From Paramagnetospirillum caucaseum (GTDB taxonomy: Bacteria > Pseudomonadota > Alphaproteobacteria > Rhodospirillales > Magnetospirillaceae), in contig NZ_AONQ01000006.1 in NCBI RefSeq assembly GCF_000342045.1, positions 1-64,000 on the forward strand: 64,000 nucleotides of DNA. The letters are read 5' to 3'. How positions within the stretch are numbered: the stretch's first letter is position 1; every line of letters starts with the position of its first letter. Position numbers and translations under genes: made by a program. The notes beneath the pieces were generated by a model. That model made no database searches and had not been told where the DNA came from. It saw only the letters and a program-made list of their open reading frames with translations. Shown piece by piece: positions 369 to 18,267 of this stretch.

Positions 369-2315
369 TCAGTGCGCTAAGGACTTTGTTACATCATCTG
401 CTATCGGCACAAAGCGACCAGCACCAAGGGCAATCGCTCTGTGGAGCATATTCAGCCCATTAGCCTGATGGGCCGATGACGGATCAGCGATCAGGCGCAC
501 CCCCCGAAACCATAACACGACGGGATGCGATGGCTGCAGCTGCTCTAGCTTGGGCAGGAGGGTATCGTCTGGACCATCGCGCCCCTCCGCAATCAGCCAA
601 TTTAGATAAATCGCGGCAATGTCCATCCTGTTGGGGGCGATCTCGATCAACCTGATGATCTCCTCCCGCCACATGGCATCCAATTCGGGCGTCATGGAAA
701 GCCAAGGGATGGTGGGAGAGGGAAACGCGGACTGCCCCACGGCATTGGCGATGACGATGGGGAGCAAAGCGGAACCGTTTGATTTTGTGCGCTCTGCTCC
801 CTCCCGAATCAGTCGCGACAGGAATTCTGCATGTTCGGGGGAAAGTTCGAGGGTGGTTGAGCGACGCTGTGATGCCGTCAATGAATTGCTGATCGAAACG
901 GCAAGGTCAAAATTCTGTCCGCGCGGATCGGTGGGAACTTGGACGTGGCCACAGTCGACTATGGCTGGCTGCGGGGAAAGGCAAGCCTCCAGACGGCCCG
1001 TCATGACTGCATTGTTGAACAGCACCAATGTCGCAGCCAGGGTGACGGCGCCCCCACCCACAGCCACCATCAGAGATCCCTGACGGCCAGCGGCCGTGTT
1101 GCGCCATTCGGTTCGCACTGGGGCTAAGGCGGCCAAGGCAAAACCGAGCGGAGCGAGGCTGAGGGGCAACATGAACCATGTGGCGTCGGTGAGCGCCAGG
1201 GCCAAGGCAAAGCCAAAGGCCATCCTGCCCGCTTGTGGCGCGGCTCCCAGCGCGATGCCGGCGCGGAGTATAATAGCCAGTGTCAGACCGGGCAGACCGG
1301 TGGCAAAGGCGGCTTCCAAGGCGGCATTGTGGCTGTGGAATTCGTCACGATAGAGATCCTTCCACTTGCCATCGACCAGGGAGATCCCGGTATCGGCCAC
1401 ATGGCGCGCCAGATATTCAGTAAAGTGTCCCCAGCCATGGCCGAAGAAAGCCGTTTTGAGGCTGTCAAAAACATGCGGTGCGATCACGCTGTGGAGGATA
1501 GAGCGGGACCACAGCGAGAATGTGCCGTGGAACCAAGTCACATGGTTCAGCAAAACATAGGGGGCCAGACTGACGATACTTATGACGGCGATGACGAGCG
1601 CCATGCGATATCGAATCAGCCAAGCCGGGATCGTCAGGCGGAGCGGCATCAGGAAGACCGCGATCACGACGAACCCCGCCATGGCGGTTCGGTTGCGCGA
1701 CATCAGCACGCCCAATATGCCGACAGCCGCTATGACGCTCCAAAACCGATTGCCTCGCTCTCTCGCATTCCAGGCCACGGGAAGCAGAGCCAGGGCGCTA
1801 TAGCCAAGGAATTCGGCGAAGCCGAAGAATCCAATGCCGGTACGGAATGGTAGCCATGTGACCGTCCGCGACAGATTGCAAACTCCAACTCCGAGGATGA
1901 CGAGCCCTCCGATCAGAACCAAGACATCATGAATCCGGGTATTCTCATCGCGCAGACGCCAGGCCGCCATGACGAAGGCGGCCAGATCGAGATACCAGAG
2001 GGGGCCTTCACCGCTTTGCGGGGCGCCAAGTAGCGCCAAGCCGGGGAATTCTGCCAGGGAAGCGGCCAATGCGCTCCAGACCGCCAAAGCCAGGGCCGGA
2101 AGGACAAGAGGGGACCGAAGCATCGACGCGAGAGACGGCTCGCGCCGCCATCCCACGGCCAGTCCCGCCCAACACAGGCTTGCTCCGAAATGAGTGGCGA
2201 TGATCACGGGTTCGGATTGCTGCCAAACCCCAAGGGCGAAATGCTTGTCGGACAACAGAACGGACAACAGGCCAATCAGCAGTCCCGTGGCCGACAGTAA
2301 GATTGTGGCCATCAT
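369..2315 (-). CDS. O-antigen ligase/polymerase-like membrane protein
   Basis: The 648-residue protein has about ten hydrophobic segments in the first two thirds. A large loop near residue 325 holds HSHN followed by ALEAAFATGLPG, resembling the conserved periplasmic loop of WaaL/Wzy-type enzymes that join or polymerise undecaprenyl-linked glycans. The last ~180 residues are soluble and could be periplasmic. The ATG at 2315 was chosen because it overlaps the upstream stop (ATGA) and follows GGAGAA. It is the last gene of a polysaccharide operon. Ligase versus polymerase cannot be decided from sequence. Confidence 0.65.
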   Translation of the reverse strand: MMATILLSATGLLIGLLSVLLSDKHFALGVWQQSEPVIIATHFGASLCWAGLAVGWRREPSLASMLRSPLVLPALALAVWSALAASLAEFPGLALLGAPQSGEGPLWYLDLAAFVMAAWRLRDENTRIHDVLVLIGGLVILGVGVCNLSRTVTWLPFRTGIGFFGFAEFLGYSALALLPVAWNARERGNRFWSVIAAVGILGVLMSRNRTAMAGFVVIAVFLMPLRLTIPAWLIRYRMALVIAVISIVSLAPYVLLNHVTWFHGTFSLWSRSILHSVIAPHVFDSLKTAFFGHGWGHFTEYLARHVADTGISLVDGKWKDLYRDEFHSHNAALEAAFATGLPGLTLAIILRAGIALGAAPQAGRMAFGFALALALTDATWFMLPLSLAPLGFALAALAPVRTEWRNTAAGRQGSLMVAVGGGAVTLAATLVLFNNAVMTGRLEACLSPQPAIVDCGHVQVPTDPRGQNFDLAVSISNSLTASQRRSTTLELSPEHAEFLSRLIREGAERTKSNGSALLPIVIANAVGQSAFPSPTIPWLSMTPELDAMWREEIIRLIEIAPNRMDIAAIYLNWLIAEGRDGPDDTLLPKLEQLQPSHPVVLWFRGVRLIADPSSAHQANGLNMLHRAIALGAGRFVPIADDVTKSLAH

Positions 2316-3423
2316 GATGGTTTCTCCAGCGCCTTCTGGATAGCCATGGACAGCGCCTCCCTGAACCGTGCGGGTGCGAACCGTTCGGCGTTCGCCCGGC
2401 AACCGAGGGGATCCATGATGGGATATTGCCGGTCCATCTCCTCCACCGCCTGACAGAGCGAGGCGGCGGTTTGCTCATGAAAGAAAACCGCCGTCGGTGC
2501 TTCCGCCTGGGGATTTTGCAGTGTCTCAAGCGCCCCACCCTTGGCCAAGGCGATCACCGGCTTTCCCGCCGCTTGGGCTTCGAGGGGAGCGATGCCGAAA
2601 TCCTCGACCGCAGCCAGGATGAAGGCCCGACAGCGCGATAGATGGTCCTCCACCACATGATCGGGCTGAGCGCCCAACAAAACCACATTGGCCGGTGCCG
2701 AGGCCCGCAGCCGCGCCAATTCCGGCCCGTCACCGATCACCACAAGCTTACGGTGCGGCATGGCCGCGAAAGCCGAGACCATGAGATCGATCCGCTTATA
2801 GGGAACTAGCCGGGATACCGTCAGATAAAAATCCTCGGAGTGATGACTGACCTGAAAGCGCTCCATAGCCACCGGCGGATAGACGGCCTCGGCGCTGCGG
2901 CGCCAATATTTGGCGATCCGCTTGGCTACAAAGCCGGAATTGGCGATCAAGACATCGGGCCGCTGCCCCGACAGCTGGTCCCAGAGGCGTAAGCGGTGCA
3001 GCATCCAACGGGCCGCCCACCGTCCCAACCAGGAGAGCTCCCCCCCCCCAGATACTGGTTCTGCAGATCCCAGGCATAGCGCATGGGCGTATGGATATAG
3101 GCGACATGCCGCTGGTCGGGGCCGGTCAAGACGCCTTTGGCGACGGCATAGCTGGAGGACAGCACCAGTTCATAGGCCGAGAAATCCCATTGCTCGATGG
3201 CCAGGGGCATCAGGGGGAGATACCGCCGATAGAAGCGGCTGGCGAAGGGAAGCTGCTGGATGAAGCTGGTGGTGACCGGGCGGCCTTGCAGGATGCGCCG
3301 GTCTTCCAGGAAATCGATCACCGCGAAAATATCGGCCGTCGGATACAGGGTGATCATCTCGGCCAGGACCCGCTCGGCACCACCGATCACGGTCAACCAG
3401 TCGAATACGATGGCCACTCTCAT
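2312..3423 (-). pseudogene. Glycosyltransferase family 4, frameshifted at a ten-G tract (possibly phase-variable)
   Basis: The N-terminal half (from ATG 3423, RVAIVFDWL...GGAERVL) and C-terminal half (IANSGFVAKRI, LVPYKRIDLMV, EDFGIAPLEAQAAGKPVIAL) are parts of one GT4 sugar transferase in different frames. The frames separate at ten Gs on the coding strand (3040-3049). Eleven or eight Gs would restore continuity, giving LGGGELSWLGRWAARW in the first case. Family members use nucleotide-sugar donors to extend lipid-linked glycans. It starts 2 nt after the sugar-phosphate transferase and overlaps the ligase gene by ATGA. Phase variation, true decay or a homopolymer read error are all possible. 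Confidence 0.75.
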
Positions 3424-3425
3424 GA

Positions 3426-4769
3426 TCAATACGCCTTGCTGTCACGAAAACAGAGGGCCAATGAGCGAGCCAGTATCATGACATCGAACATGATCGACCA
3501 GTTCTCGATATAGAACAGATCATAGGCGATCCGTTGTTCCAAATCCTCGGCGGACGTGATCTCCCCCCGGCAGCCATTGACTTGGGCCCAGCCCGTCATG
3601 CCTGGCCGAACCCGCGTCCGCCACAGATAGGAATCCGTGATGGCCGCCAAGCCTTGCGAATGGAAAACCTCATGCGGGCGCGGGCCAACCAGCGACATGG
3701 AGCCGGTCAGAACGTTGAAGAGCTGGGGAAGCTCGTCGAGGCTGGTCCGGCGGAGCAATCTGCCGATCCGGGTGACGCGTGGATCATTGCGGATTGTCGT
3801 GGTCATAACCTGTTCCGTCGGATCGTGACGCATGGTGCGAAACTTATAGACGGTGAATTCCCGATCCCGCCAGCCCGAGCGTCGCTGGGCATAAAGGATC
3901 GGCCCGGAACTGTCCAGTTTGATGGCGGCGGCGATCAGCCCCATGAGAGGGGCCAGCACAACAAGCAGCACCACCGCCCCCACCCGGTCCTCAATCGCCT
4001 TCAGGACCGATGCGACCCCGCGCCAAGGCCGGTTCATCACGCGCAGAACCGGCATACCGGCAAGGGTATCGGTCGTTTCAAACGGCCACCGGATGGCTGA
4101 GTATTCAAGGAAAAGATCGATATCCGTGTCGAATGACGACAGATCGACGATCATCCTCTCCACATCGGAAATATCCTGCCCACCGACGGCCACAACGATT
4201 CCGTGCGGGTCTGTATCCGCGCAGGCTGTCCGTAATGCCGCGACATGGTCCGAGATCTGGCTGTCCAGAGACAAGGCGACCACTGCCACGATGTCGGTCC
4301 CATCCGGCGTCAGGTCGATGCGGCGCCGGATCGTTTCGATCAAGTCCATCCGGCCGATGATCGCGATGCGGCGGCGCCCGATACCGGCTGACTTCAGATG
4401 CGCACTGGCGGCGCCGATGGCGGCCCGGCCGAACACCAAGAGAAGGAGACTCAAGGGGACCCACAGCATCAGCCAGACGCGGGAAAACTCGCCGCTGGTT
4501 TTGGTGGCATAGCCCAAGGTCATCAGGGTGACCCCCCCGGCCAATCCGCCAATGGCCAGGGCATTCATGCTATGGGCGCTGTTCAGAATCCGCCCCGATG
4601 AATAGGCGCCGAACACATGGAACCAGAACGACAAGACTGGGGGGGAAATCAGCAACAGCCCCGTCTGCAACGGCGACATGCTCAGGCTTCCATGACGCAA
4701 GACGAACGCCAAGCCGCCACCCATGAGAATGGCAACGATGTCGAAGAGCTTGACCAGTCCGATGAGCAC
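3426..4769 (-). CDS. Undecaprenyl-phosphate sugar-1-phosphate transferase (WbaP/ExoY type)
   Basis: This 447-residue enzyme should start polysaccharide synthesis by moving hexose-1-phosphate from a nucleotide sugar to undecaprenyl phosphate at the inner membrane. Four N-terminal membrane segments precede a cytosolic nucleotide-binding-like domain and the catalytic bacterial sugar transferase domain (about 255-440), with [24 protein letters not shown] and [16 protein letters not shown] lies just upstream in frame, so GTG at 4769 is the only early start. It is slightly short for the family, so the N-terminus may be trimmed. It leads the operon with the glycosyltransferase and ligase genes. Confidence 0.88.
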
Positions 4770-7072: not shown

Positions 7073-7321
7073 ATGAAGATCGCGCTTACCGCAGCCGTGT
7101 TGATGGCCTTGTCCGTACCGGCCATGGCCCAGTCCGGCGCAATGTCCCAGGCCGTGGGGCAGGTCGGAGCCCAGGGGGTCGGCACCATGACCGATGCAAC
7201 GAAGCAGCAGGCAACAGACAAGGCGGAGGCGGCCAAAGCCAAAGCTAAGGCGGAGGCAGAGGCGGCCAAGCCAGCGGCTCCCGACGTCAAGGGCGCCATC
7301 CCAGTGGCTCCGCCGAAATAG
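7073..7321 (+). CDS. Small secreted Ala/Lys/Glu-rich protein
   Basis: The 82-residue product has a strong signal peptide (MKIALTAAVLMALSVPAMA, cleavage before Gln20). The mature part is an Ala/Lys/Glu-rich helix-forming segment followed by a Pro-rich tail. AGGAGAA precedes the ATG at the normal distance, and the gene lies 29 nt after the lipoprotein hydrolase, so they are probably co-transcribed. I recognise no family. Confidence 0.65.
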   Translation: MKIALTAAVLMALSVPAMAQSGAMSQAVGQVGAQGVGTMTDATKQQATDKAEAAKAKAKAEAEAAKPAAPDVKGAIPVAPPK

Positions 7322-7365
7322 ATCCGTTTCGTTCTGATCGTTTTCCGTAGGAGACCTTGATGACC

Positions 7366-7394
7366 CGATCAGCGATGGCAATCATCGCTGATCG
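7366..7394. terminator. Bidirectional hairpin between convergent genes
   Basis: A perfect 12-bp stem (CGATCAGCGATG and its complement) closes a GCAAT loop, and a short GTTGGG/CCCAAC hairpin follows. No long U-run is present. Its place between convergent genes suggests a terminator. Confidence 0.5.
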
Positions 7395-7429
7395 TTGGGT
7401 GCCCCAACATCTGGATGCTGAATTCAGCT

Positions 7430-8458
7430 TCAGTGGATGCGGTTATATGGCATGCGGTTCATTTGGCCGACCGTAGGACGCGATGCCCCTATTTCCTTTG
7501 CGAAGGCGCGGGCGATGGCCTGATTCACCCAGGTGCGGAAATGTCCTCCGGAATGTGGGTTGCGGAGCGGCATGGTCGGCACTTGGTCACGGACACTCTG
7601 AACCGTCGGCCACCAATCGGCAAAGCCGACCCCGCGATGCAATGCCCAGTTTCGAAGCCAGTCATAGCTTGGAGCGTGGTCTTGGGTGACAGCCCAGGAA
7701 ACGATCAGCTTTCCTCCCGCAACCTCAACCTCGTCGGCAAGCATTTCGAGATAGGGCCGACACCGCTCTGCCACCGACATGCCATGGGGGCTTGGAGATC
7801 TTGAGATCAGGAGAGGGCGCAATGCCTCAAGGGCCAGGATGGTTACTTGGCGATCGAGAATCCAGCGAGCCACTGGGGTGAAAGCCCCCCAATACGGACT
7901 CCCCGCAACTGCCTTTCGGGCCCGACGCCCCGAGAGCAGTTCATCAATGTCCTCCGCATCGTTTTCGGCACCAAGCAGAAGCACAAAAGATGGCTTTCCA
8001 AGTTCTTTCAGCATCCGACGAAAGGTGATCAGCTCTTGCAGCGTCCCATAGCTGGAAACGCCCAAATTAACGACGGCAATATCCTTCCTATAACGCCCAT
8101 CCGAGCCGATGTTCAGTTGAAGGTCCAACTGGGCCGGATAGGATGCGTCCATCGGCACCCCCGTACCCTGGGTATAGGAATCCCCAAGTGCGAATACGAG
8201 CTCTCGGTAGCCCGTGAAATCGTCGGTGTAGTTAAAACTACCCAGACGGTTTGTTTCGAACTCGATCTGGTAGTCGGCGGAACGAAGGAAATGACTGGAG
8301 GGGCGGTAGCGATAGCCAAGTTCGCTGTCAAAAACCATCATTCCAGGAACATCAGAAGGGTATGTCGGGGAAAACTCCTGAAGAATAAGCTCGAACACCG
8401 CAATCGACAACAGAACAGACAGAAATACTGTCAAGATATTTCCTAATTTTCGCTTCAT
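7430..8458 (-). CDS. SGNH/GDSL-family hydrolase with N-terminal membrane anchor
   Basis: The 342-residue protein has one N-terminal hydrophobic helix, then an SGNH-like domain: block I GDSYTQG (Ser94), a later GAEND and a C-terminal NPHSGGHF that could supply the catalytic His. Related enzymes add or remove O-acetyl groups on periplasmic glycans, which suits the surrounding polysaccharide genes. The ATG at 8458 follows GGTGGGG. The substrate is not inferable. Confidence 0.65.
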   Translation of the reverse strand: MKRKLGNILTVFLSVLLSIAVFELILQEFSPTYPSDVPGMMVFDSELGYRYRPSSHFLRSADYQIEFETNRLGSFNYTDDFTGYRELVFALGDSYTQGTGVPMDASYPAQLDLQLNIGSDGRYRKDIAVVNLGVSSYGTLQELITFRRMLKELGKPSFVLLLGAENDAEDIDELLSGRRARKAVAGSPYWGAFTPVARWILDRQVTILALEALRPLLISRSPSPHGMSVAERCRPYLEMLADEVEVAGGKLIVSWAVTQDHAPSYDWLRNWALHRGVGFADWWPTVQSVRDQVPTMPLRNPHSGGHFRTWVNQAIARAFAKEIGASRPTVGQMNRMPYNRIH

Positions 8459-8586
8459 ATTCCCCACCAAAAATATGCGTTCAATGCCGAAGGATGCGCT
8501 GGAGGCAGGAAGATTTATGATTTAATCCGCAGGTGATTTTGCGGCATCATGGTTGACACCATAGGCTTGGGGCGCGCGACTTCATC

Positions 8587-9702
8587 ATGTCCAAAGATTG
8601 CCGAGTCGCCATCGATTGCTCAAGCCTTGGCAGGCAGTGGACCGGGGTCGCCCATTTTACCTATCGTCTGACCCAGTCCTTACAGGAAATCCGTCCCGAC
8701 TGGGATTTTCTCCTGTTCAATGGAATTGGTTGGGAACGGACACTCTCCGCCCCATCCGACCACCATCCATCCATCCGGTTCTGGCGCGAAATTCCATTTG
8801 CCTACGAGGCGTGGCGAAAAGTTCAACGAAGCTGTTTCAGTCGGCTTCCCCGCTCGTTTCGTCCGGATGTCTTTCTGGTGCCGAATCATCTTCCTCCGGC
8901 ACCTTGCCACCCCATCGTTCCCATTATTCATGATTTGTCCCATATGCGAATGCCCGAAACTCACCCAAAAGGGCGATTAAGATGGCTGAGCTCCCTCCAG
9001 GACGCTGCGGCAAGCGCGTCGGAAATCATCGCAGTATCGGATTTTACCAAGGCTGAAATTACCAGTCTGCTTGGCGTTTCTCCGGACCGCATAAGCGTCG
9101 CCACTCCGGGGCTCTCGCCGGGATTTCTCCCCCAGAACGACGCCCGTCTCGCGCCGGTCATGGATCGCTTAGGCCTTCAGTCCGGCACGTACTATCTCTG
9201 CCTGGCGGCTCAGGAACCACGAAAGAACTTGTCGACGCTGATTGCCGCCCACAAGGCCCTGCCGACCGAGTTCCGGCGAGACCACCCCCTGGTTCTGGCA
9301 GGAGCAGCGGGATGGGGCTCCCAGATAGTGGGCGCCCATGACGACATGGTCCGCGAGATCGGCTACGTTCCCGCGTCAGATCTACCTAGCCTGCTCGGCG
9401 GGGCTATTGCGCTATGCTACCCGTCGCACTACGAGGGGTTTGGTATGCCGGTTATAGAGGCCATGGCCTGCGGCACTCCGGTGATCGCATCCACCGCTCT
9501 TGGATTGGATACGGCGAGCGGAGACGCGGCGTTGCGAGTCCCACCGCAGGATGTCGCAGAGTGGACCGCGACGATGATCGTCATCACCAAGGACAAGCAT
9601 CGGCGCGAGGCATGTATCCAGCGGGGCCTGTCACACGCGTCGCACTTTTCCTGGACGGAGACCGCGTCCGTCGTCGCAAGGGTTCTGGAGCGGGTGATTT
9701 AG
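8587..9702 (+). CDS. Glycosyltransferase family 4
   Basis: This 371-residue protein has the two-domain GT-B layout: an N-terminal acceptor domain with IDCSSLGRQWTGVAHFTYRL, then a nucleotide-sugar domain with QEPRKNLSTLI and the retaining-GT EX7E motif at Glu283/Glu291 in EGFGMPVIEAMACGTPVI. It is divergent from the SGNH gene, and its stop overlaps the stop of the RiPP B2 gene tail to tail by 4 nt. It probably adds a hexose during polysaccharide assembly; a role in decorating the RiPP is possible but unsupported. Confidence 0.82.
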   Translation: MSKDCRVAIDCSSLGRQWTGVAHFTYRLTQSLQEIRPDWDFLLFNGIGWERTLSAPSDHHPSIRFWREIPFAYEAWRKVQRSCFSRLPRSFRPDVFLVPNHLPPAPCHPIVPIIHDLSHMRMPETHPKGRLRWLSSLQDAAASASEIIAVSDFTKAEITSLLGVSPDRISVATPGLSPGFLPQNDARLAPVMDRLGLQSGTYYLCLAAQEPRKNLSTLIAAHKALPTEFRRDHPLVLAGAAGWGSQIVGAHDDMVREIGYVPASDLPSLLGGAIALCYPSHYEGFGMPVIEAMACGTPVIASTALGLDTASGDAALRVPPQDVAEWTATMIVITKDKHRREACIQRGLSHASHFSWTETASVVARVLERVI

Positions 9703-10148
9703 CGGGGGCTTACGGTAAAGACTGAAATAACCCGATAGGTCTGATGCCCAGCATAGCCGGTTACAAAGACATCGCCACTTTTCAGCCATGCATGGGCGAT
9801 GAGGCCGCTTTCCTTCGCCACCCCCAATAGCAGCGAGGCCGGAATGCCCCGGCGGCGCAGCATGATTGCGCCGGTTATCGCCTGGACGAGGCAGGTGCTT
9901 TTCCAGGGGGTTCTGGCCGCCATGGCGCGCACGGCCTTGCCAACCCATTCAGGATCACCCTCTGGCCCCGCCTTCTCCGCCGTGGTCGCGGAGGACAACT
10001 CCAATCCGGTCAGCGCCGCAAGCCACCGGAACGGCAAGGTAAGCACCCCTGCCTTAACGACACATAACAGCGTCATAGCTTCCATAAGCAGCAAAATCTC
10101 GGCAGCAGAAGCCCGCCGTAATTTGTCGATGTCAGTCTTCAACGACAT
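9699..10148 (-). CDS. Lasso peptide biosynthesis B2 protein (transglutaminase-like leader peptidase)
   Basis: The 149-residue protein matches the lasso B2 family: a hydrophobic N-terminal helix pair, then a compact cysteine-protease domain with Cys86 (STCLVQA), His119 (AHAW) and Asp126 (SGDVFVTG) as likely triad. B2 enzymes cut the leader off the precursor so that the cyclase can close the ring. It overlaps the PqqD-like gene, matching the usual B1-B2 pairing. The start could also be ATG 10160; 10148 has better ribosome-site spacing. It is the last gene of the minus-strand RiPP operon. Confidence 0.88.
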   Translation of the reverse strand: MSLKTDIDKLRRASAAEILLLMEAMTLLCVVKAGVLTLPFRWLAALTGLELSSATTAEKAGPEGDPEWVGKAVRAMAARTPWKSTCLVQAITGAIMLRRRGIPASLLLGVAKESGLIAHAWLKSGDVFVTGYAGHQTYRVISVFTVSPR

Positions 10149-10416
10149 GGATGATTCCATCGCGTTCCAGTTCCGTGATGAACGTCATCACCTCTGCGGC
10201 GATAACCTCGGGATCACCACGAAAGGCCTCCGTCAGGAGCTTGATTAAATCATCCACCCGGTGAGGAGACTCCAATATTGACCAGATACGACGGCCGACA
10301 TCATTAAGGCCGATGTAGTTATTGGATGCCAGATTAAGGATGACGATCTCGTCACCAACGGTGGTCGACTGCAATCCGTCCGTTTGGGCGATAACTGATG
10401 TGGCACACAGAGGCAT
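10132..10416 (-). CDS. PqqD-family leader-binding protein (lasso B1 / RRE)
   Basis: The 94-residue protein has the PqqD/RRE pattern: a beta hairpin with GDEIVILNLASNNYIGLNDVGRRIW, then helices ending in ELERDGIIHV. In lasso pathways B1 binds the precursor leader and hands it to the B2 protease. GGAGATGAATAG immediately precedes the ATG, and the gene overlaps B2. Related proteins occur beside HprK-related kinases in families named, from memory, HPr-rel-A system PqqD proteins, which fits this operon. Confidence 0.88.
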   Translation of the reverse strand: MPLCATSVIAQTDGLQSTTVGDEIVILNLASNNYIGLNDVGRRIWSILESPHRVDDLIKLLTEAFRGDPEVIAAEVMTFITELERDGIIHVVED

Positions 10417-11295
10417 CTATTCATCTCCATAGGGAAGCGGATTGTTGTCACGGTCCAGGTATCCGAACCGGCGCATCACCTCGCCATGGGATCGGATGAT
10501 TTGGTCGGCAAGATGGGCGGCTAACTCCTGCCGCCATCCACCGGCTCGTCCCCGACGAAAGAAATTCCCAGTCCCGGCCGAGGGCTTCTCCCGGAACCCC
10601 CCGGCCAGCTCTTGTCGCTGCAGTTCATCAAAATTGGAGAACCGGACTGCGCGACAGACCCGGTCAGCATCGAAAGGCAAACCGCAGGCCCTCACAACCT
10701 CCCTGAACACCGCTTCGGGTGACTTTAACATATCCTCATAGCGCACGACATGCGTGAGCCCGTCGGGTTGATCGACCCAGCTTCTCACATGATCGCTCCA
10801 TGACCCGATAACTTGGCTCAGTTGATCCGTCATGCGTCGCGAACCGCCGCCAAGCCGGGACGAAGAATCCCCCATCCTCTCGACTGCATCTTCGATCGAT
10901 ACCCCGAGATGATGGGCAAATGACGTGGCGACATCCAGCGGATTGCGCAGAATATAGATCGAGCACCGTGTCAGCGATGGTGGAAAGATCGGCTCTCCGG
11001 ATAGGGCACTGCCCCCCCAAGCATCGTGAACCTTGATGAATATTGTATCCCTCATGGTTCCCGCCAGCCTGCGATAGACCTCAGGCCGGAGGCTTTCGAC
11101 AATAGAGTCGTTCAGGGATGACGACTTGATCCCGCACCAGTCATCGAACAATTCCCTGGAACTTGCCATGACGTTATTTTCGAGATCATTAATGCCAAGG
11201 GGCTCACAGCAGTTGCGGGTATAGTTATTTAAAAGCACCCTCATCCATGTGTTGCCTGACTTGGGAAATGACGCCAGCCAGACGATATCAGTCAC
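10417..11295 (-). CDS. Sulfotransferase (PAPS-dependent) in the RiPP operon
   Basis: The 292-residue protein has both PAPS-binding signatures of cytosolic sulfotransferases: FPKSGNTWM at residues 10-18 (5'-phosphosulfate loop) and RNPLDVATSFAHH near residue 117 (3'-phosphate site). It should transfer sulfate to a hydroxyl. It sits between a kinase gene (8-nt overlap) and the PqqD gene, so the peptide or its phosphate-bearing form is the likely acceptor, though a glycan acceptor cannot be excluded. The start is GTG 11295. Confidence 0.85.
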   Translation of the reverse strand: MTDIVWLASFPKSGNTWMRVLLNNYTRNCCEPLGINDLENNVMASSRELFDDWCGIKSSSLNDSIVESLRPEVYRRLAGTMRDTIFIKVHDAWGGSALSGEPIFPPSLTRCSIYILRNPLDVATSFAHHLGVSIEDAVERMGDSSSRLGGGSRRMTDQLSQVIGSWSDHVRSWVDQPDGLTHVVRYEDMLKSPEAVFREVVRACGLPFDADRVCRAVRFSNFDELQRQELAGGFREKPSAGTGNFFRRGRAGGWRQELAAHLADQIIRSHGEVMRRFGYLDRDNNPLPYGDE

Positions 11296-12169
11296 GGCAA
11301 ATCTCGCTCATGATGGCGGCGATGGTCCATGTTCCGTTCGGTCGGCAAACCCGGCGCATGGGAACGCCCCCTGCCACCGCCGAAAATACGGTAAAGTGGT
11401 CGCCAAGCTCCTCGGGAAGCAATGGGCCATAAATGCAGTCATGCAACGCCGCGAATTTCTCGGCCCCGATCAAGGGAATACTCTCCACGCGATCGTCATC
11501 CCAGGCATCAAGAATCACGATCTCGGCAAGGGGCGCCAAAGTTCCCATATCGGGGGCCGGAAGCGTGACTTTCTTGGCTTGGCACGGATTGCGCGGCAGG
11601 CTGGCTATATTCTTGCCCAGCCTCTCGGCCGCATCCAGACACATGGAAACATGGTTGTTTCCGGGCAGGACCGCGAATCCACCGTCCGGTCGCGCAGCGA
11701 GAACCGTTACGTCATCGGACAATGTTTTCCAACCGGCATCCAGAAGGGCCTGATGGGTCGTCGATTTGCCGGCCCCGGAACGGCCGCACAGAACGCTCAC
11801 CCCCCTGGGGCCGACAGCGGCATTGCCGTGCAGCACCAGATGGCCCCGCTGGCGCATGACCGCAGCCAATATCGAGTGGATGAAATGAAATGCGAGCCTG
11901 CCATCCTCGGACGCTTCATTCCTCTCGACGGTCACACGCTGCCCTCCCTCCACCAGGAAACGGCCTCCACGCGGGTCGCCCTTCCACAAAAAGAGGCCTG
12001 GGGCCGCATCATATCTGGGGGTCCGGAGGGTGGGAGCGGAAAGAGCTTGGGGCACCACGCCCTCCACCACGCTCAGATCCAGTGGTGACGCCCCATCCAC
12101 CGCAAGCAACGAAGGGCAGGAAAACGGCAACGACAGATGAAGGCCGTAAGCCATATAGGCAAAACTCAT
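11288..12169 (-). CDS. HprK-like kinase, second copy
   Basis: This 293-residue protein has the C-terminal fold of HPr kinase: Walker A GRSGAGKST near residue 130, then an SDD acidic motif (TLSDDVTVL). Kinases of this type phosphorylate lasso peptides such as paeninodin on serine. The ATG at 12169 overlaps the previous stop as ATGA. It is divergent from the other kinase, so the two are not a recent duplication and may act on different residues or form a pair. Confidence 0.82.
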   Translation of the reverse strand: MSFAYMAYGLHLSLPFSCPSLLAVDGASPLDLSVVEGVVPQALSAPTLRTPRYDAAPGLFLWKGDPRGGRFLVEGGQRVTVERNEASEDGRLAFHFIHSILAAVMRQRGHLVLHGNAAVGPRGVSVLCGRSGAGKSTTHQALLDAGWKTLSDDVTVLAARPDGGFAVLPGNNHVSMCLDAAERLGKNIASLPRNPCQAKKVTLPAPDMGTLAPLAEIVILDAWDDDRVESIPLIGAEKFAALHDCIYGPLLPEELGDHFTVFSAVAGGVPMRRVCRPNGTWTIAAIMSEICRD

Positions 12170-12987
12170 GAGTCCCACTCCAGGAATCGCCGCGTCACGT
12201 CATCAACCGACCATCCTCTGAGCGGGCGCCTTAGATGTAAGGATGAAGTCGTCCGGACAATCTCGGCAAGCAACTCAAAAATCCGAACCGGCGTCATAAT
12301 TGCCAACGCAATCCGCCTGTTATAGATCGCATAGCCCGCGCTCATAACGGCTTTGGCCCCAAGTTCAGCCTCCAGAGAGACCCGATCACCGTCTTCCAGC
12401 CCCAGCCTGACAATGGCCTTCAACCGGGAGGGCCCGGCAATTTTAGGGTTCTCCACCTGATGGAATGTCCGCCCGCTGTCCTTTGCCGATGGCAAGGACA
12501 ATCCGGCAGCTGCATCTGGCCAGAGCCAAAGTCCGCTATCGGCGGCTTCAGCGATCGGCCCACCCGCGTCGGACCATGATATCACGGCAAGATCATCCGA
12601 CAGCAGCCGCCACCCGTGCAACAGCAAGCTCATGGCCAATGTTGACTTGCCCGATACGCCAATGCCGGTAAAGGCCACCGCATCTCCCGAGCCGTTGACG
12701 ACGGTTGCGGCATTCAAGACAAGGCGGCCGCGCTGGTACGCCGCCGCCGCCAAAGGAGTCATGGCCGCGAAGCGCTTGACCTCCATCATCTGAGCCTCGG
12801 GGTCGGGCTGTATGGTGATGCGCTCGCCTCTCTCGACGAAATAGCGCGCGACATTCGGCACCCTCAGCAGGAATTGCCCGTCCGCCACCTCCCACAGCAC
12901 GCCGGACGACGTGATCGCATCGAGATGAAGCGGCACGCATCCAAATTCCATTTGAAGATCAGACAGAGTGGGCGGAAGTGGGATCAT
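12166..12987 (-). CDS. HprK-related kinase A
   Basis: The 273-residue protein carries Walker A GIGVSGKST at about 107-115 and the SDD motif (LLSDDLAVI) of HPr-kinase-related proteins. In comparable gene sets this family is found with a PqqD-like protein and an asparagine-synthase homologue. It overlaps the cyclase stop by ATGA and the next kinase by ATGA, so the set is translationally coupled. Its substrate is probably a serine in the precursor core (AGSGSNPD has two). Confidence 0.82.
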   Translation of the reverse strand: MIPLPPTLSDLQMEFGCVPLHLDAITSSGVLWEVADGQFLLRVPNVARYFVERGERITIQPDPEAQMMEVKRFAAMTPLAAAAYQRGRLVLNAATVVNGSGDAVAFTGIGVSGKSTLAMSLLLHGWRLLSDDLAVISWSDAGGPIAEAADSGLWLWPDAAAGLSLPSAKDSGRTFHQVENPKIAGPSRLKAIVRLGLEDGDRVSLEAELGAKAVMSAGYAIYNRRIALAIMTPVRIFELLAEIVRTTSSLHLRRPLRGWSVDDVTRRFLEWDS

Positions 12988-14858
12988 GCCCTGTCTGCTG
13001 CATACGTATTCACGAATTGCCCGGCCATAACCCCGCGCATGATGATGGAGTCGGCCTGCCTTAAAATATCCGGGCCGTCTTCGGTCTGTATGGAACGCCA
13101 GGTTGCGCGCATGTGATCCACATCGACGTAATTGGCCGCCGGTCCATGCGCCAATTCATCCAATGCCACGTCCATAGCCTGTGCGTCTCCCCTGAGCCTC
13201 GGAACGAGATCGGCGGCCTGTCTACCGATTTTCGAGTTCACCCGGATCACGTCAGGCAGGCGTCCCGTCATGGCGGACCGGATCACCCAACGGTCGAGGC
13301 CACTTTCCTGATCGATAAAGATATGGTCGGGTATGGACAAGACATATTCCAGCAAGCCAGCATCGGCCGTCGGGTCGCGATATTCGATACCGCCCTGCAG
13401 CCCCATTTCCGTATAGATCGCACTGCTGGAATTGGCCTCTGGGCTCAGCATCTTGAGCCGGTGCGTCAACCCGTCCTTGGCGCGGGGCGAAAGAGGCCCG
13501 CCGCCATCGTCCAGAATACGCTCTCTCAGGCGAATGCGGCGGGCGAACTCCGGATGGATCGCACTTGTGCGAAACCAATCCTCCGACAGCCGAAGGTCCT
13601 TCCACATGCGCATGGCCGGAGTCGGCACGATCTCGCGCAACAATTCCTTGAGGCAGCGCCCCAAGCCTATCCGACGAAGCCGTTGAACCAGCGGAAGCGA
13701 GAACGGGCTGCCGACCCAAGATATCCCGGGATTTCCCAAATGGCCGGTCAGGACCACCTGACAGCCCAGAGCCCGAGCCTGGGCCTGCAATTCCAACCGC
13801 CAGAAAAAGTTGGTGACCGCATAGCCGGGGGTGCCGGTAATGGAAAGCATGGCCCGAAGCCCCTGCAGCGGCGTAAGCGAGCGCCCCTCAACGAGGTGAT
13901 GGTCGATATTGCCCGCCATTTCCACGGCTGCCCGCGCATAGGGCAACTCATTGCCGAAGAGTGGGCCCGTATAGGGCGAGGTCTCGGTGGTCGGTATGGA
14001 GGTGAAGGCGTGGAGACGCTGGGCGCTGCGCGAGAGAATAGCTGCGGCGGTAACCGCAACCGAACTGGAATCGAGACCGCCGCTCAGGGTCGCGCCGAAC
14101 GGGCCGTCCCCCACAAGACGATTGCGCACGGCGGCGTCGAAGAGTTCCCGAAACCGGTCGGCATAATCCTGACGCTGACGAAACCGGCACAGGCTGACGT
14201 CTTCTATCCGCCAGTATCGTTCAATCCTGGTCTGTTCCGGGGTTACCACCATGACATGGGCTGGTGGAAGCAGCTTTATCTCGGGGTGAATCGTTCGATC
14301 ACCGGGAGAGGGATGCCACCCAACCAGCCTTTGCGCCAGATAGAGCTCATCAAAGTCACTGGGATGTTTGACGAAGGAGCGGAGAGTCAGGAAGCGGGGC
14401 GAGAAGGCGATGAAGGCTGGCGTGATGCAATAGGCCAGGGCTGTAGGGCCGAACCGGTCGCGGGCCAGGACAAGTCGCCGGTCCGCGGGATGCCAAGCCG
14501 CAAAGCACCAGTCTCCGCGCAGATGGTTGACGCAATCTGCGCCCCAGCGGCCATAGGCGTGACGGATCAAATCCCGGTCTGAAAGATCGGCCCCCCCGTC
14601 GGCAACCGAGTCCAAGGCCAGTGCCAAGTCAGTCCGGTTGTCCAGCCGCCCCGCAGCCGAGAACAACACGGCCTCGCCGAGGGGGCACGCCCCCTGTTCT
14701 CCCCGGTGGATTGAGCCGAGAATAGCCGTCTCGGCACAGAGAAAATCCGCGCGAATGTTTCCGGAGTACGACGAAACATCGGCCTGGAAGATCTCCAGTG
14801 TTTTCGCGGAAATCGGCCCGCCATCGCGTCGGACAAGGCCGAAAACACCGAAACTCAC
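12984..14858 (-). CDS. Asparagine-synthase-like lasso cyclase (C protein)
   Basis: This 624-residue protein has an N-terminal Ntn-glutaminase-like domain lacking the usual Cys2 (it starts MSFGVFG) and a C-terminal ATP-pyrophosphatase domain with PP-loop SGGLDSSSV near residue 256. Lasso cyclases have this layout: they adenylate an Asp/Glu side chain and let the new N-terminal amine close a macrolactam. The loss of Cys2 fits cyclase rather than asparagine synthetase. The start is GTG 14858, preceded by GGAG and lying in frame with the upstream precursor gene, separated from it by a TAA. It heads the coupled run cyclase-kinase-kinase-sulfotransferase-B1-B2. Confidence 0.87.
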   Translation of the reverse strand: MSFGVFGLVRRDGGPISAKTLEIFQADVSSYSGNIRADFLCAETAILGSIHRGEQGACPLGEAVLFSAAGRLDNRTDLALALDSVADGGADLSDRDLIRHAYGRWGADCVNHLRGDWCFAAWHPADRRLVLARDRFGPTALAYCITPAFIAFSPRFLTLRSFVKHPSDFDELYLAQRLVGWHPSPGDRTIHPEIKLLPPAHVMVVTPEQTRIERYWRIEDVSLCRFRQRQDYADRFRELFDAAVRNRLVGDGPFGATLSGGLDSSSVAVTAAAILSRSAQRLHAFTSIPTTETSPYTGPLFGNELPYARAAVEMAGNIDHHLVEGRSLTPLQGLRAMLSITGTPGYAVTNFFWRLELQAQARALGCQVVLTGHLGNPGISWVGSPFSLPLVQRLRRIGLGRCLKELLREIVPTPAMRMWKDLRLSEDWFRTSAIHPEFARRIRLRERILDDGGGPLSPRAKDGLTHRLKMLSPEANSSSAIYTEMGLQGGIEYRDPTADAGLLEYVLSIPDHIFIDQESGLDRWVIRSAMTGRLPDVIRVNSKIGRQAADLVPRLRGDAQAMDVALDELAHGPAANYVDVDHMRATWRSIQTEDGPDILRQADSIIMRGVMAGQFVNTYAADRA

Positions 14859-14909
14859 TTGAAAAACTCCAACACCGCTCCCGCCGACACGGAAGATGCC
14901 GTCAGCGAC

Positions 14910-15059
14910 TTAGTCCGGGTTCGAGCCAGACCCAGCAAGGGTGCGGGCCAAGTCAATCTTCATAACGGTGGGCGAGCGCCATTCCGGACGCGGATCAACC
15001 GTATCATCGCCAGCCTGGGAGGCAATCTCGATACGGTTCTCAGGATTGTATTCCGACAT
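14910..15059 (-). CDS. Lasso-type RiPP precursor peptide
   Basis: A 49-codon gene starts at ATG 15059 behind GCGGAGACAG. Residues 27-41 read W-x-x-P ... I-D-L-A-R-T-L and then AGSGSNPD to the stop. The Pro30-to-Thr40 spacing, the I/L-D before the Thr and the core start AG-x-G match what I recall of paeninodin-type precursors, where cleavage occurs two residues after the conserved Thr. The predicted core is A42-D49: ring closure would join Ala1 to Asp8, leaving no tail to thread. Ser44 and Ser46 are possible kinase or sulfotransferase sites. It sits directly upstream of the cyclase gene, where the precursor is expected. Confidence 0.78.
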   Translation of the reverse strand: MSEYNPENRIEIASQAGDDTVDPRPEWRSPTVMKIDLARTLAGSGSNPD

Positions 15060-15113
15060 CTGTCTCCGCTTTCATCTGCAATGCAGCCAGCTCCCAAACG
15101 AGCGCTCTGGCGA

Positions 15114-15142
15114 AGTGTACCATCCGGAAAAACAATAAACAA
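15114..15142 (-). promoter_or_regulatory. Predicted sigma-70 promoter for the precursor operon
   Basis: On the minus strand TTGTTT (15142-15137) and TACACT (15119-15114) are 17 bp apart, which would start transcription about 50 nt before the precursor ATG. Confidence 0.4.
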
Positions 15143-15240
15143 GTTCCAACCCCGGAAGAGCCCTTACCCGGAACGCCGGAATAATGGCTGAGAAAGGTTC
15201 GTCTGCGGTGATGGCGGACTGACTTCCAGCATGCTTCTCG

Positions 15241-15263
15241 ACATTAGACGTTTGGTCTAATGT
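15241..15263. promoter_or_regulatory. Perfect 9-bp dyad, candidate operator
   Basis: ACATTAGAC and GTCTAATGT form a perfect inverted repeat around GTTTG in the divergent RiPP intergenic region. The symmetric TTAGAC-N5-GTCTAA core is of the type bound by a dimeric repressor such as a TetR-class protein. No regulator gene lies in the cluster, so it would act in trans. Confidence 0.55.
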
Positions 15264-15376
15264 GGGGCGGAAACGGTTGGGGGCTGATGCGGGTGCCTGA
15301 CAATCAGACCGACAGACGGGAGCGCCTGCAACCATGGCATCGTCATGGGCAGGTCGCGATACCCAAGGAAATGAAT

Positions 15377-16534
15377 ATGCCGATGCTGGAGTTCCGCCTG
15401 CTGTGCCTGGCGGCAAGCCCGCAGCCCAACGGACAGGAACTGTCTCGCACCGTGGCTGGCGTCACCGACTGGCGCGCAATCGGCGAGGCGGCCCGGCGCC
15501 ATCGTCTGGCGCAACGGCTCTATCCCATTCTGGCGAAGTATGGAGAGGGAATGGTGCCTCCCGAGATCCTGGCTGAAATGCACATCCGGGTTCTGAGGGA
15601 AGTCGCTGTCTGTCATTCGCAATTGCCCGAGATCATGCGCGTGACCCGCGGTCTTGCAGGCGGCGGGGTCGCCGTCCTGGTGCTGAAGGGGGTTCCCCTG
15701 TCCCAGCAGCTTTATGGCGAGCCGACCATGAGAGGGGTTGGCGACATCGATCTTCTCGTCGAGCCAAGCCAATTGCGTCAGGCGGATGGGATTCTGAGGG
15801 AGGCTGGCTATCTGCGGCAAGGCGCCAACGTGCTGGATCGCAACCAGACCATCTGCCAGCAGCGGCTCAAGGACATCGCCTATCGGCATTTCGACACCGG
15901 GCAGTATGTCGAATTACACCAGCGCCTGACGGAGAACCCATATCTTCTGCCATGCGACTTTGCCGCGCTATGGCGGGATCGCGATACGGTCGCCGTCGCA
16001 GACGGAAGCCTCGCCACTTTACCCCGGCGTTTTCTCCCCCTCTATCTTTGCATTCACGGGGCCACCCATTGCTGGGAGCGCCTGCGCTGGTTGGCGGATC
16101 TGGCCGAACTTCTGCAAGAGCCTGGCGCCGTTAAGCTTGCTCTGGCCGACGCGGACATGGCGGGGCTTGGCGCCCCCATGCGTCAGGCGCTGGCGCTGTG
16201 CCATAACTGGCTTGGCCTGAACGTGGAAGCGAGCGACCTTCCCGCGGCGGCGACGCTTGATCGCTTCGTTCATCGCTTCTTTTCCGGTCGCCGGTGGGAA
16301 TGCCTGCCCAAGCCGGGCAGCCGCGAATGGCTGCGCCGCTATTCATTCTGGGGACGTGTTCACAATTGGTCCCTACGGTCCGATTGGCGGTACCGGATAC
16401 GGGAACTGTCGTCGATACTGATCTGGCCTCCGGACTGGGAGACAATTCCCCTGCCCGACACCCTGTTCTGGCTCTACCCGTTTCTTCGCCCCGTCGGTTG
16501 GGTGTTACGGCGCGGACGTAAGGAAACACCGTGA
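15377..16534 (+). CDS. Nucleotidyltransferase family protein of the RiPP cluster
   Basis: The 385-residue protein has the NTP_transf_5-type core: KGVPLSQQLYGEPTMRGVGDIDLLV at residues 104-128, where GDIDLL supplies metal ligands Asp123 and Asp125. Proteins of this family accompany PqqD-like proteins and ABC exporters, and in paeninodin-type clusters they accompany the kinase; their reaction is not well established. The ATG at 15377 follows AAGGA with a 7-nt gap, better than longer in-frame starts. Its stop overlaps the exporter start (GTGA), so the two are coupled. Confidence 0.8.
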   Translation: MPMLEFRLLCLAASPQPNGQELSRTVAGVTDWRAIGEAARRHRLAQRLYPILAKYGEGMVPPEILAEMHIRVLREVAVCHSQLPEIMRVTRGLAGGGVAVLVLKGVPLSQQLYGEPTMRGVGDIDLLVEPSQLRQADGILREAGYLRQGANVLDRNQTICQQRLKDIAYRHFDTGQYVELHQRLTENPYLLPCDFAALWRDRDTVAVADGSLATLPRRFLPLYLCIHGATHCWERLRWLADLAELLQEPGAVKLALADADMAGLGAPMRQALALCHNWLGLNVEASDLPAAATLDRFVHRFFSGRRWECLPKPGSREWLRRYSFWGRVHNWSLRSDWRYRIRELSSILIWPPDWETIPLPDTLFWLYPFLRPVGWVLRRGRKETP

Positions 16535-18267
16535 CACCGTCTGCTTCTCGCCAATTGCGCGGCTGTATCATTGATCTGGGTCGCTGGGCCGGGGGACTGG
16601 CGCTTTGCCGAACCGCTATTCTAATGCTGGCAGCCGCCGTGGCCGAGGGAGTGGGCTTCGCTCTATTGCTGCCGCTGCTTGCCGTTGTGGACGCAAGCGA
16701 ATCTCAGCGAACGGGACCTGTCAGAGAACTGCTTGATTGGCTTGGCCCCCAAGGCAATCTGTCCGTCTTGTTGACGCTCTTCGTCGCGGTGGTTTCACTG
16801 AGGTCAGTTCTCGTCTGGCGTCGGGAAGCCAGTCTGACGGCCATCCGCTTCGGCTTCGTCGAGGCCCTCAGAGTGCGGCTGTTCCAGGCTATCGCCTGTG
16901 CGGAATGGAAATATGTGGCAGGCCGCCCCCGCTCTGAATTGATCAATTTGCTGGGCGGGGATATCGCCCGGCTCGGATTGGGGTTCCTTAATCTGCTCAA
17001 ATTACCGCCTCTGATGTTGATGCTGGCGGCTCAGGCGGCAGCGGCGATATATGTGGCGTCCTCCATCGGACTGATCGCCGTCGGCTGCGTCTTCGCCATC
17101 GGGATGACGGTGAAGATGCGGACGAAGCTGGTTCAACGCCTCGGCGGGGACCTCACATACAAGCAAGGGCAGCTGTTTTCCGAAATCGCCGGCTTTCTGG
17201 AAGGGTTGAAGCCGGCCAAGTGCCACGCCTGCGAGCAGGCGCATGTCACTGCATTCGCGGCCATTACGGGGGAAATGTGCGAGCGCACTTATGCCTTCAC
17301 CGAGGGTGGAGCCCGGATGCGCATGGCTGCGCAAATCTTCATCGCCGTGGGACTGGCGATTCTGGTTTGGCTGTCGGTTACCTACGGGACACTGGCGCCC
17401 ACCACCTTGATGGTTCTGGCGGTAATCCTGGCTCGGATGATGCCCTTACTGCAAGATGCCCAGCAGAGTTGGGACGGCGTCATTCATATGCTGCCGACCT
17501 ATGAGGCAGTCACAACGGCCGAACATCATTGCCTAGCCGCTGCCGAAGCCCCGGACAGGGCCACGCCCCCCCTGGCGCTGACCCATGAGATCAGGATGCG
17601 CGACGTCAGCTTCCGCCATGACCATGACAGCCCATTCCTGTTTCAAGGGGCGAACGTCACCATCACTGCGGGGCAGGTTACCGCTCTGGTCGGCCTATCA
17701 GGAGCCGGTAAGACCTCCGTCGCCGACCTGCTGCTCGGACTGCTCTCCCCCGAAAGTGGCGCGATCACCATCGACGGCACCCCCCTGGTCGGCAGCAATC
17801 GCCGGGCATGGCGGAGTACGGCCGCCTATGTCCCTCAGGACCCCTTTCTGTTGAACGCCTCGGTCCGTGACAACATGCTGTGGGCGTCTCCTTCGGCGAG
17901 TCCGGCCGAGATCAACCGCGCATTGACCATGGCCTCGATCGATCAAGTGGTGGCAGCCCTGCCACAAGGCCTCGACACCATCGTCGGTGATCGCGGCTCT
18001 CGGCTGTCGGGAGGGGAACGACAGCGCCTTGTCCTTGCCCAGGCACTGCTTCGTCGGCCACGCTTTCTGGTTCTCGACGAAGCGACAAGCGGACTGGACG
18101 CCGAGGCTGAGCGGGCCGTTACCGAGGCGCTGACGACGTTGCGTGGCACCATGACGATCCTGGTCGTTGCTCACCGACCGGCGATGATCGCTGCCGCCGA
18201 TAACGTCATTGAAGTTTCTGACGGTAAACTATCTATCCAAACCCAGCAGTATGGCGCGCCAATTTGA
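16531..18267 (+). CDS. ABC exporter, fused permease-ATPase (lasso D-like)
   Basis: The 578-residue protein has an exporter-type membrane domain with about six helices (to ~330), then an ATPase with Walker A GLSGAGKTS near 388, signature LSGGERQRL near 492, Walker B VLDEATSGLD near 513 and the H-loop AHRP. There is no C39 peptidase domain, as expected for lasso exporters whose leader is removed by B2. It should secrete the mature peptide and give self-immunity. The GTG start overlaps the preceding stop. Confidence 0.87.
   Translation: MTPSASRQLRGCIIDLGRWAGGLALCRTAILMLAAAVAEGVGFALLLPLLAVVDASESQRTGPVRELLDWLGPQGNLSVLLTLFVAVVSLRSVLVWRREASLTAIRFGFVEALRVRLFQAIACAEWKYVAGRPRSELINLLGGDIARLGLGFLNLLKLPPLMLMLAAQAAAAIYVASSIGLIAVGCVFAIGMTVKMRTKLVQRLGGDLTYKQGQLFSEIAGFLEGLKPAKCHACEQAHVTAFAAITGEMCERTYAFTEGGARMRMAAQIFIAVGLAILVWLSVTYGTLAPTTLMVLAVILARMMPLLQDAQQSWDGVIHMLPTYEAVTTAEHHCLAAAEAPDRATPPLALTHEIRMRDVSFRHDHDSPFLFQGANVTITAGQVTALVGLSGAGKTSVADLLLGLLSPESGAITIDGTPLVGSNRRAWRSTAAYVPQDPFLLNASVRDNMLWASPSASPAEINRALTMASIDQVVAALPQGLDTIVGDRGSRLSGGERQRLVLAQALLRRPRFLVLDEATSGLDAEAERAVTEALTTLRGTMTILVVAHRPAMIAAADNVIEVSDGKLSIQTQQYGAPI

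Follow-up and report, generated by a model that had tools for sequence, protein, structure and literature searches.

The question raised by this locus was which kind of peptide a lasso-type gene cluster in the alphaproteobacterium Paramagnetospirillum caucaseum would make. The cluster lies at positions 9699-18267 of the first 64,000 nucleotides of contig NZ_AONQ01000006.1 (assembly GCF_000342045.1), and this whole stretch is called the window here. The initial annotation had read it as a lasso-like cluster for a ribosomally synthesized and post-translationally modified peptide (RiPP). All genes named there were found as open frames, i.e., B1, B2, the cyclase C, two HprK-like kinases (K1 and K2), the sulfotransferase S, the NTP_transf_5 protein N and the exporter D. 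We give an even chance to the answer that the cluster is an alphaproteobacterial sister line of the paeninodin-type machinery, located in an exopolysaccharide locus, and makes a tailless, modified macrolactam of eight residues, not a lasso peptide. What is new is the tailless core, together with the position of these cyclases next to the paeninodins.

The precursor and its predicted tailless core

The precursor gene, announced earlier without coordinates, was placed at 15059-14910 on the minus strand. It encodes MSEYNPENRIEIASQAGDDTVDPRPEWRSPTVMKIDLARTLAGSGSNPD (49 codons). The leader motif WRSPTV fits the pattern [Y/W]xxPx[L/V/I], and a W-x-x-P-x-V leader motif has been described for lasso precursors (PMC13381572). 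The C-terminal part reads WRSPTVMKIDLARTL/AGSGSNPD, the slash marking the predicted cut after Thr-Leu. This cut was deduced from the Thr at -2, which would be the penultimate leader residue provided that the core begins at Ala1; a cut one residue later would leave a core of seven residues, tailless as well.

The Asp or Glu that lasso peptides have within core positions 7-9 is present as Asp8. Alignment with the relatives points to Asp8 as the ring-closing residue, and it is also the final residue of the precursor. As no residues follow it that could form a threaded C-terminal tail, the product of the predicted core cannot be a lasso peptide in the strict sense. The earlier expectation of a lasso-like small cyclic peptide is thus supported for the small cyclic product and given up for the lasso. 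The C-terminal Ser that is the phosphorylation site in the paeninodin family was not found either, the core ending in Asp.

The leader was scored with a matrix built from the 18 other precursors. It reached 23.5, the highest value among the 122 candidates in the window, and the runner-up reached 14.7. No family model matched the precursor. The matrix precursors were chosen by a W..P pattern and are not an unbiased set; 15 of the 19 have a C-terminal Ser. In the 18 others the presumed ring Asp is residue 7 to 10 of the predicted core and is followed, as judged by eye, by at least five residues, in contrast to none in the window. A simple nonsense truncation was judged unlikely, because precursor and C are in one frame, with only a single TAA between them and no other stop through C, so that such a change would imply an ancestral fusion to C. 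No description of a tailless core was met in the literature consulted, which was not searched for that phrase.

Further reading frames were considered as precursors and rejected. The plus-strand open reading frame (ORF) 14859-15191 had no lasso leader and no family match. ORF 14956-14855, in another frame and with WxxP two residues past a TTG start, scored 9.6, the YxxP in ORF 15416-15072 scored 5.5, and the remaining small-ORF matches between C and N scored at most 2.5. Elsewhere, a putative precursor was seen upstream of the C gene of locus L076 (6944-7107); it ends in TL/GPSTFSSGQAAHVS, and its core has neither Asp nor Glu although a cyclase follows.

Relatives of the cluster and placement of the cyclase

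A search for relatives of C at 1e-80 over 317 genomes of the order retrieved two, namely that of the window itself and G267 (Thalassospira lucentensis HF2). The numbers were 2 of 385 genomes of the class at 1e-70 and, with a two-row profile, 5 of 398 genomes of the phylum at 1e-60, the window's own genome included in both cases. A contig scan yielded 29 loci, and only the Thalassospira locus had an E-value below 1e-31. T. lucentensis belongs to the Rhodospirillales according to NCBI. Its cluster (L010/L015) has the same gene order as the window, C-K1-K2-S-B1-B2-N, with identities of 34% for C, 41% for S, 31% for K2, 33% over 161 residues for K1 and 23% over 166 residues for N. It encodes two precursors, ending in ETL/ASMGSLNDGGTPTV and QTL/SNVGSVADGGLGSTP. 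RTL/AGSGSNPD of the window aligned with both cores without gaps, and G4, S5 and D8 are common to all of them. Unlike in the window, both precursors have tails, no exporter lies beside N, and no polysaccharide genes were found with the Escherichia coli seeds used.

The phylogenetic trees contain few taxa, several long-branched rows and weak deep forks. Among 37 cyclase-like rows, those of the window and of T. lucentensis were paired (100/100), with the cyclase of Paenibacillus cellulosilyticus as sister of the pair (100/99). A second, quick tree (28 rows) included a Priestia cyclase, which adjoins an annotated paeninodin-family precursor; it omitted L102, L078, L090 and L094 (long-branched or not lasso-like) as well as all rows from the window's own genome. 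Here the two Bacillota and the two alphaproteobacterial rows were sisters, with a value of 98 in the Shimodaira-Hasegawa-like approximate likelihood ratio test (SH-aLRT). The window C is thus sister to, and outside of, the two paeninodin-type cyclases of Bacillota that were sampled, and further lasso cyclases of Alphaproteobacteria, L099 and L103 of the same genus among them, were placed elsewhere. Paeninodins have been restricted to Bacillota in a 2026 paper (PMC13381572), and a line next to them is now found outside this phylum.

The view that C is an ordinary asparagine synthetase was not favoured, because a lasso cyclase model was its best match and its partners in the tree are cyclases from lasso clusters. 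C was weakly split from most homologues of its own genome (41/83), with one long-branched own-genome row on the lasso side. The relatives of C in the PDB were asparagine synthetases, a beta-lactam synthetase, CarA and a hydroxyamidotransferase, and none of them was named a lasso cyclase. As a side observation, locus L080 on a plasmid of the haloarchaeon Halopiger xanaduensis has a lasso-type set with a kinase-like and an NTP-transferase gene near flippase and sulfatase genes.

Organization of the gene cluster

The features are listed in Table 1. The minus-strand order is precursor, C, K1, K2, S, B1 and B2, with 51 bases between precursor and C. Neighbouring genes overlap or abut from C through B2 on the minus strand, as do N and the exporter on the plus strand. 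This is consistent with translational coupling and fits the two divergent, coupled operons proposed before.

Table 1. Features of the peptide cluster and of the flanking polysaccharide locus in the window
Feature	Position	Strand	Remarks
Precursor peptide A	14910..15059	-	49 aa; WxxPxV in leader; Thr(-2) predicted; core AGSGSNPD, last residue Asp8
C, asparagine-synthetase-like macrolactam cyclase	12984..14858	-	GTG start; in frame of A, one TAA between
K1, HprK-like kinase, possible pseudokinase	12166..12987	-	Asn at catalytic His position
K2, HprK-like peptide kinase	11288..12178	-	His-Lys-Asp-Asp intact
S, sulfotransferase	10417..11295	-	Sulfotransfer_1; PKSGNTW motif
B1, PqqD-like leader-binding protein (RiPP recognition element, RRE)	10132..10416	-	PqqD Pfam match
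B2, transglutaminase-fold leader peptidase	9699..10160	-	Transglut_core3; lasso_biosyn_B2
N, NTP_transf_5 protein	15260..16534	+	NTP_transf_5; homologue fused to B2 in L083
D, ABC exporter	16531..18267	+	ABC_tran; 67% identical to L083 exporter
Family-4 glycosyltransferase, flanking polysaccharide locus	8587..9702	+	
Bacterial sugar transferase (Bac_transf), polysaccharide locus	3426..4769	-	
O-antigen ligase/polymerase-like protein, polysaccharide locus	369..2402	-	weak Wzy_C, below Pfam cut-off

The lasso-type machinery of the initial annotation was confirmed. B2 matched the NCBIfam model lasso_biosyn_B2 with 93.1 bits (cut-off 33), and lasso models were also the best NCBIfam matches of B1 (lasso PqqD, 53.4) and C (lasso cyclase, 227), though below the cut-offs of 80 and 525, respectively. 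The Pfam E-values were 1.9e-25 for Transglut_core3, 3.7e-16 for PqqD, 8.3e-23 for Sulfotransfer_1, 1.6e-30 for Asn_synthase, 1.2e-50 for NTP_transf_5 and 6.4e-31 for ABC_tran. K1 and K2 had no Pfam match at 0.001, and their matches to HprK-related NCBIfam models (24.8 and 43.4) were far under the cut-off of 200. Motifs were found in C (SGGLDS), B2 (TCL and HAW), S (PKSGNTW) and the exporter. Those of S we take to be of the 3'-phosphoadenosine-5'-phosphosulfate (PAPS) type. N probably starts near 15371, because its similarity to L083, a locus of the same genus described below, begins only at ORF residue 44. The B2 model (NF033537) had one match only in the window's own genome, and a megablast search against plasmids gave no match.

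The two kinases

K1 and K2 were aligned with 33 other kinases from lasso-B2 loci. The two HprK-like kinases of the initial annotation both have the P-loop and Asp-Asp. K2 has the full His-Lys-Asp-Asp set that has been described for lasso kinases (PMC9266682, PMC10368454) and is found in the paeninodin family, and K1 has Asn in place of the catalytic His. One kinase is therefore possibly inactive; K1 may be a helper or a pseudokinase, a guess from one residue. The K1 of T. lucentensis likewise has Asn at this position. The catalytic His is kept in 28 of the 35 aligned kinases, and five of the six loci with several kinases include a copy without it.

Both BsfK (PMC10368454) and LppK (PMC13381572) phosphorylate Ser3 of the core. 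Ser3 or Ser5 of the window core are candidate sites, the usual C-terminal Ser being missing; the T. lucentensis cores share Ser5 with the window, and not Ser3.

Frequency of the tailoring genes

The combination of kinases and sulfotransferase had been called unusual, a view that did not hold. NF033537 matched in 23 of 317 genomes of the order. The loci surveyed were the window, L010 and 25 refetched loci, i.e., the 29 B2 places minus one inside L082 and minus L069. A sulfotransferase was labelled in 15 of these 27 lasso-B2 loci and a kinase adjoined it in 13 of the 15, according to labels from hidden Markov models that are provisional because the model for family-4 glycosyltransferases (GT4) drifted. 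Of the genes labelled "C", those of L090 and L094 fall with own-genome homologues in the tree, and that of L088 has no Pfam match. No precursors were recognised in L087, L088, L090 and L098.

Erythrobacter-like Alphaproteobacteria are presumably the hosts of a gene table from 2023. Under neighbouring numbers it lists a lasso B2, an NTP-transferase, two sulfotransferases, PqqD, an asparagine synthase and a glycosyltransferase (PMC10040529). In 2014, some lasso clusters were noted to contain both a kinase and a sulfotransferase (PMC4289311). An NTP-transferase together with a sulfotransferase was noted for a paeninodin-family operon in a 2024 paper (PMC11381294), and these two also for some Firmicutes clusters (PMC8498205, PMC11381294). 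Thus, neither the enzymes nor their combination are new.

Comparison with known systems

The window shares with the paeninodin-type clusters of Bacillota (paeninodin, pseudomycoidin) B1, B2, C, an HprK-like kinase, an NTP-transferase and an ABC exporter, as well as the WxxP leader in which a Thr follows the Trp at a distance of 13 residues (the spacing of the Priestia paeninodin-family peptide) and the sister cyclases. A polysaccharide neighbourhood is shared with those of Bacilli (PMC13381572) and a sulfotransferase with some of those of Firmicutes (PMC8498205, PMC11381294). The differences are the alphaproteobacterial host, the missing C-terminal Ser, the missing tail and the extra kinase copy without His. 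The bsf cluster of Bradymonas sediminis resembles the window in a predicted ring from residue 1 to Asp8, Ser3, a C-terminal Asp, a kinase and N (PMC10368454). Unlike the window core, BsfA has residues past the ring (Ser10, Thr11), and it has Ile instead of Thr at -2; the available text of PMC10368454 names no sulfotransferase, in contrast to S in the window.

The linear polyphosphorylated peptides (LPP) have a PqqD-like RRE, an HprK-like kinase, an NTP-transferase and an exporter in common with the window, are likewise encoded in capsule loci, and have core Ser3, also present in the window, as the kinase target (PMC13381572). They are described there without a cyclase and with the signal-peptidase-like LppS, whereas the window contains C and B2.

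A closer analogue of LPP than the window is L083 in genome G149 of the same genus. It has a matching polysaccharide locus, and its N (60%), D (67%), outer-membrane protein (55%) and Wzy (45%) are identical to those of the window at the percentages given. It encodes B1, three precursors, an intact kinase and a fusion of B2 and N, and the region 7280-13323 also contains a CxxCxxCC protein and the exporter. The ten-residue cores contain Cys; two have no acidic residue, and the third has Asp as its tenth and last residue. Within the 20 kb of L083 a cyclase was not found, and the locus is possibly a linear relative of the window's system. A further locus of the genus, L087 (8029-19277), has S-K-B2 and B1-D-N plus Wzz, and again no cyclase was found in 20 kb. 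The order-wide search for C at 1e-80 retrieved no cyclase from the genomes of L083 and L087. It seems that members of this genus can do without the cyclase, unless a more divergent one is encoded elsewhere in the two genomes.

The polysaccharide neighbourhood

The genes flanking the cluster encode a sugar transferase and glycosyltransferases, and one protein has a weak match to Wzy_C. Whether such a neighbourhood is common was analyzed with 12 colanic-acid and O-antigen proteins of E. coli as seeds. A match was found in 11 of the 27 lasso loci versus 2 of 22 control stretches (Fisher p 0.02). In this test the loci were of unequal length and some were not independent of each other, the GT4 genes of the window itself were missed, and 22 of the 40 requested controls existed, two of them short. 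An iterated count with these seeds (14/25 versus 3/22) was discarded, as drift of the GT4 model had caused N and D to be labelled glycosyltransferases. In Bacilli, paeninodins and LPP have been associated with capsule loci, with an unknown role (PMC13381572), and the association with polysaccharide loci is now extended to Alphaproteobacteria.

Proposed pathway and alternative explanations

The genes, their motifs, the synteny, the placement in the trees and the position of Asp8 are shown by the present data. For the product, which may be phosphorylated and/or sulfated, we infer the following steps, sites and order. B1 would bind the WxxPxV leader, and K2 would phosphorylate a core Ser, either Ser3, as for BsfA, or Ser5, which is common to Thalassospira. 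S may sulfate the remaining Ser. B2 would cleave after Thr(-2)-Leu(-1), C would activate Asp8 and link it to the amine of Ala1, N would add a sugar to the phosphate, and D would export the product. The step of N is modelled on PsmN, which puts hexoses on a phosphorylated peptide, an alternative not being excluded (PMC9266682).

Several points weigh against a functional tailless macrolactam. The tailless core is present in one sequence only, no second strain was found, and the cores of the nearest relative, T. lucentensis, carry tails of six to seven residues after Asp8. We know of no lasso-type cyclase that acts on a tailless core. The kinases score low in Pfam and NCBIfam, and so does C with the lasso model. 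Among 956 candidates from 419 kb of control DNA, 2 scored at least 23.5, and the leader matrix proved soft: when left out, two of the precursors used to build it scored just 0.5 and 18.0. The leader score by itself is therefore not decisive; the precursor call gains weight from its location just ahead of C, which is the same in the syntenic locus. In addition, a family-4 glycosyltransferase gene (2312-3429, minus strand) is split over two frames in comparison to its L083 homologue, either by a sequencing error or by a real loss, which cannot be told, and a transposase-like ORF (18764-21736) adjoins the exporter, so that the locus may be decaying.

These last two points, together with the tails of the 18 other matrix precursors, fit the explanation that the precursor is a relic from which an indel removed the tail, in a cluster that is disappearing or unproductive. 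This is the main rival of the ring-only reading, and we regard it as less likely than the latter. Against it, all eight ORFs for biosynthesis, tailoring and export are open and have kept the checked motifs except for the His of K1, the open frame past the stop speaks against a simple nonsense change, and the stop lies exactly after the ring residue. A true lasso peptide could also be made from another, unrecognised precursor elsewhere in the genome, as T. lucentensis has two and L083 three precursors per locus. With a single B2 match in the genome and no rival near the score of 14910-15059 among the candidates of the scan, which was limited to the 64-kb window, this is improbable. Just as slight is the chance that a linear or ring phosphopeptide is attached to, or secreted with, the exopolysaccharide as part of its assembly. 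The flanking genes, the excess of seed matches over the controls, and N, D and GT4 being common to L083, where no cyclase was found, would agree with it. However, there is no evidence of a covalent link between peptide and polysaccharide, the syntenic T. lucentensis locus had no match to the seeds, and the co-location may stem from hot spots of horizontal gain.

The tailless macrolactam thus remains the preferred product. Tentatively, lasso enzymes next to the paeninodins may have been reduced in Alphaproteobacteria to make a ring-only phospho- or sulfo-octapeptide that serves in exopolysaccharide assembly or alongside it. Related loci would then form a gradient from lasso to ring to linear peptides, with the sister genome without cyclase and with ten-residue cores at its linear end. 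If a ring-only product is indeed made, a lasso cyclase works without a tail, its macrolactam chemistry is separable from its fold-shaping role, and it could become a general tool for ring formation.

Additional observations

Genome G210 contains five B2 matches over four loci (L082, L085, L086 and L101). L085 has three kinase-like and two sulfotransferase-like genes, and two of the kinases are without the catalytic His. In the window, the GC content is about 60% over 1-18 kb and steps up to about 68% from 22 kb on, and the transposase-like ORF 18764-21736, presumably of the Tn3 type, lies near this step. The cluster and the polysaccharide genes look like an acquired island.

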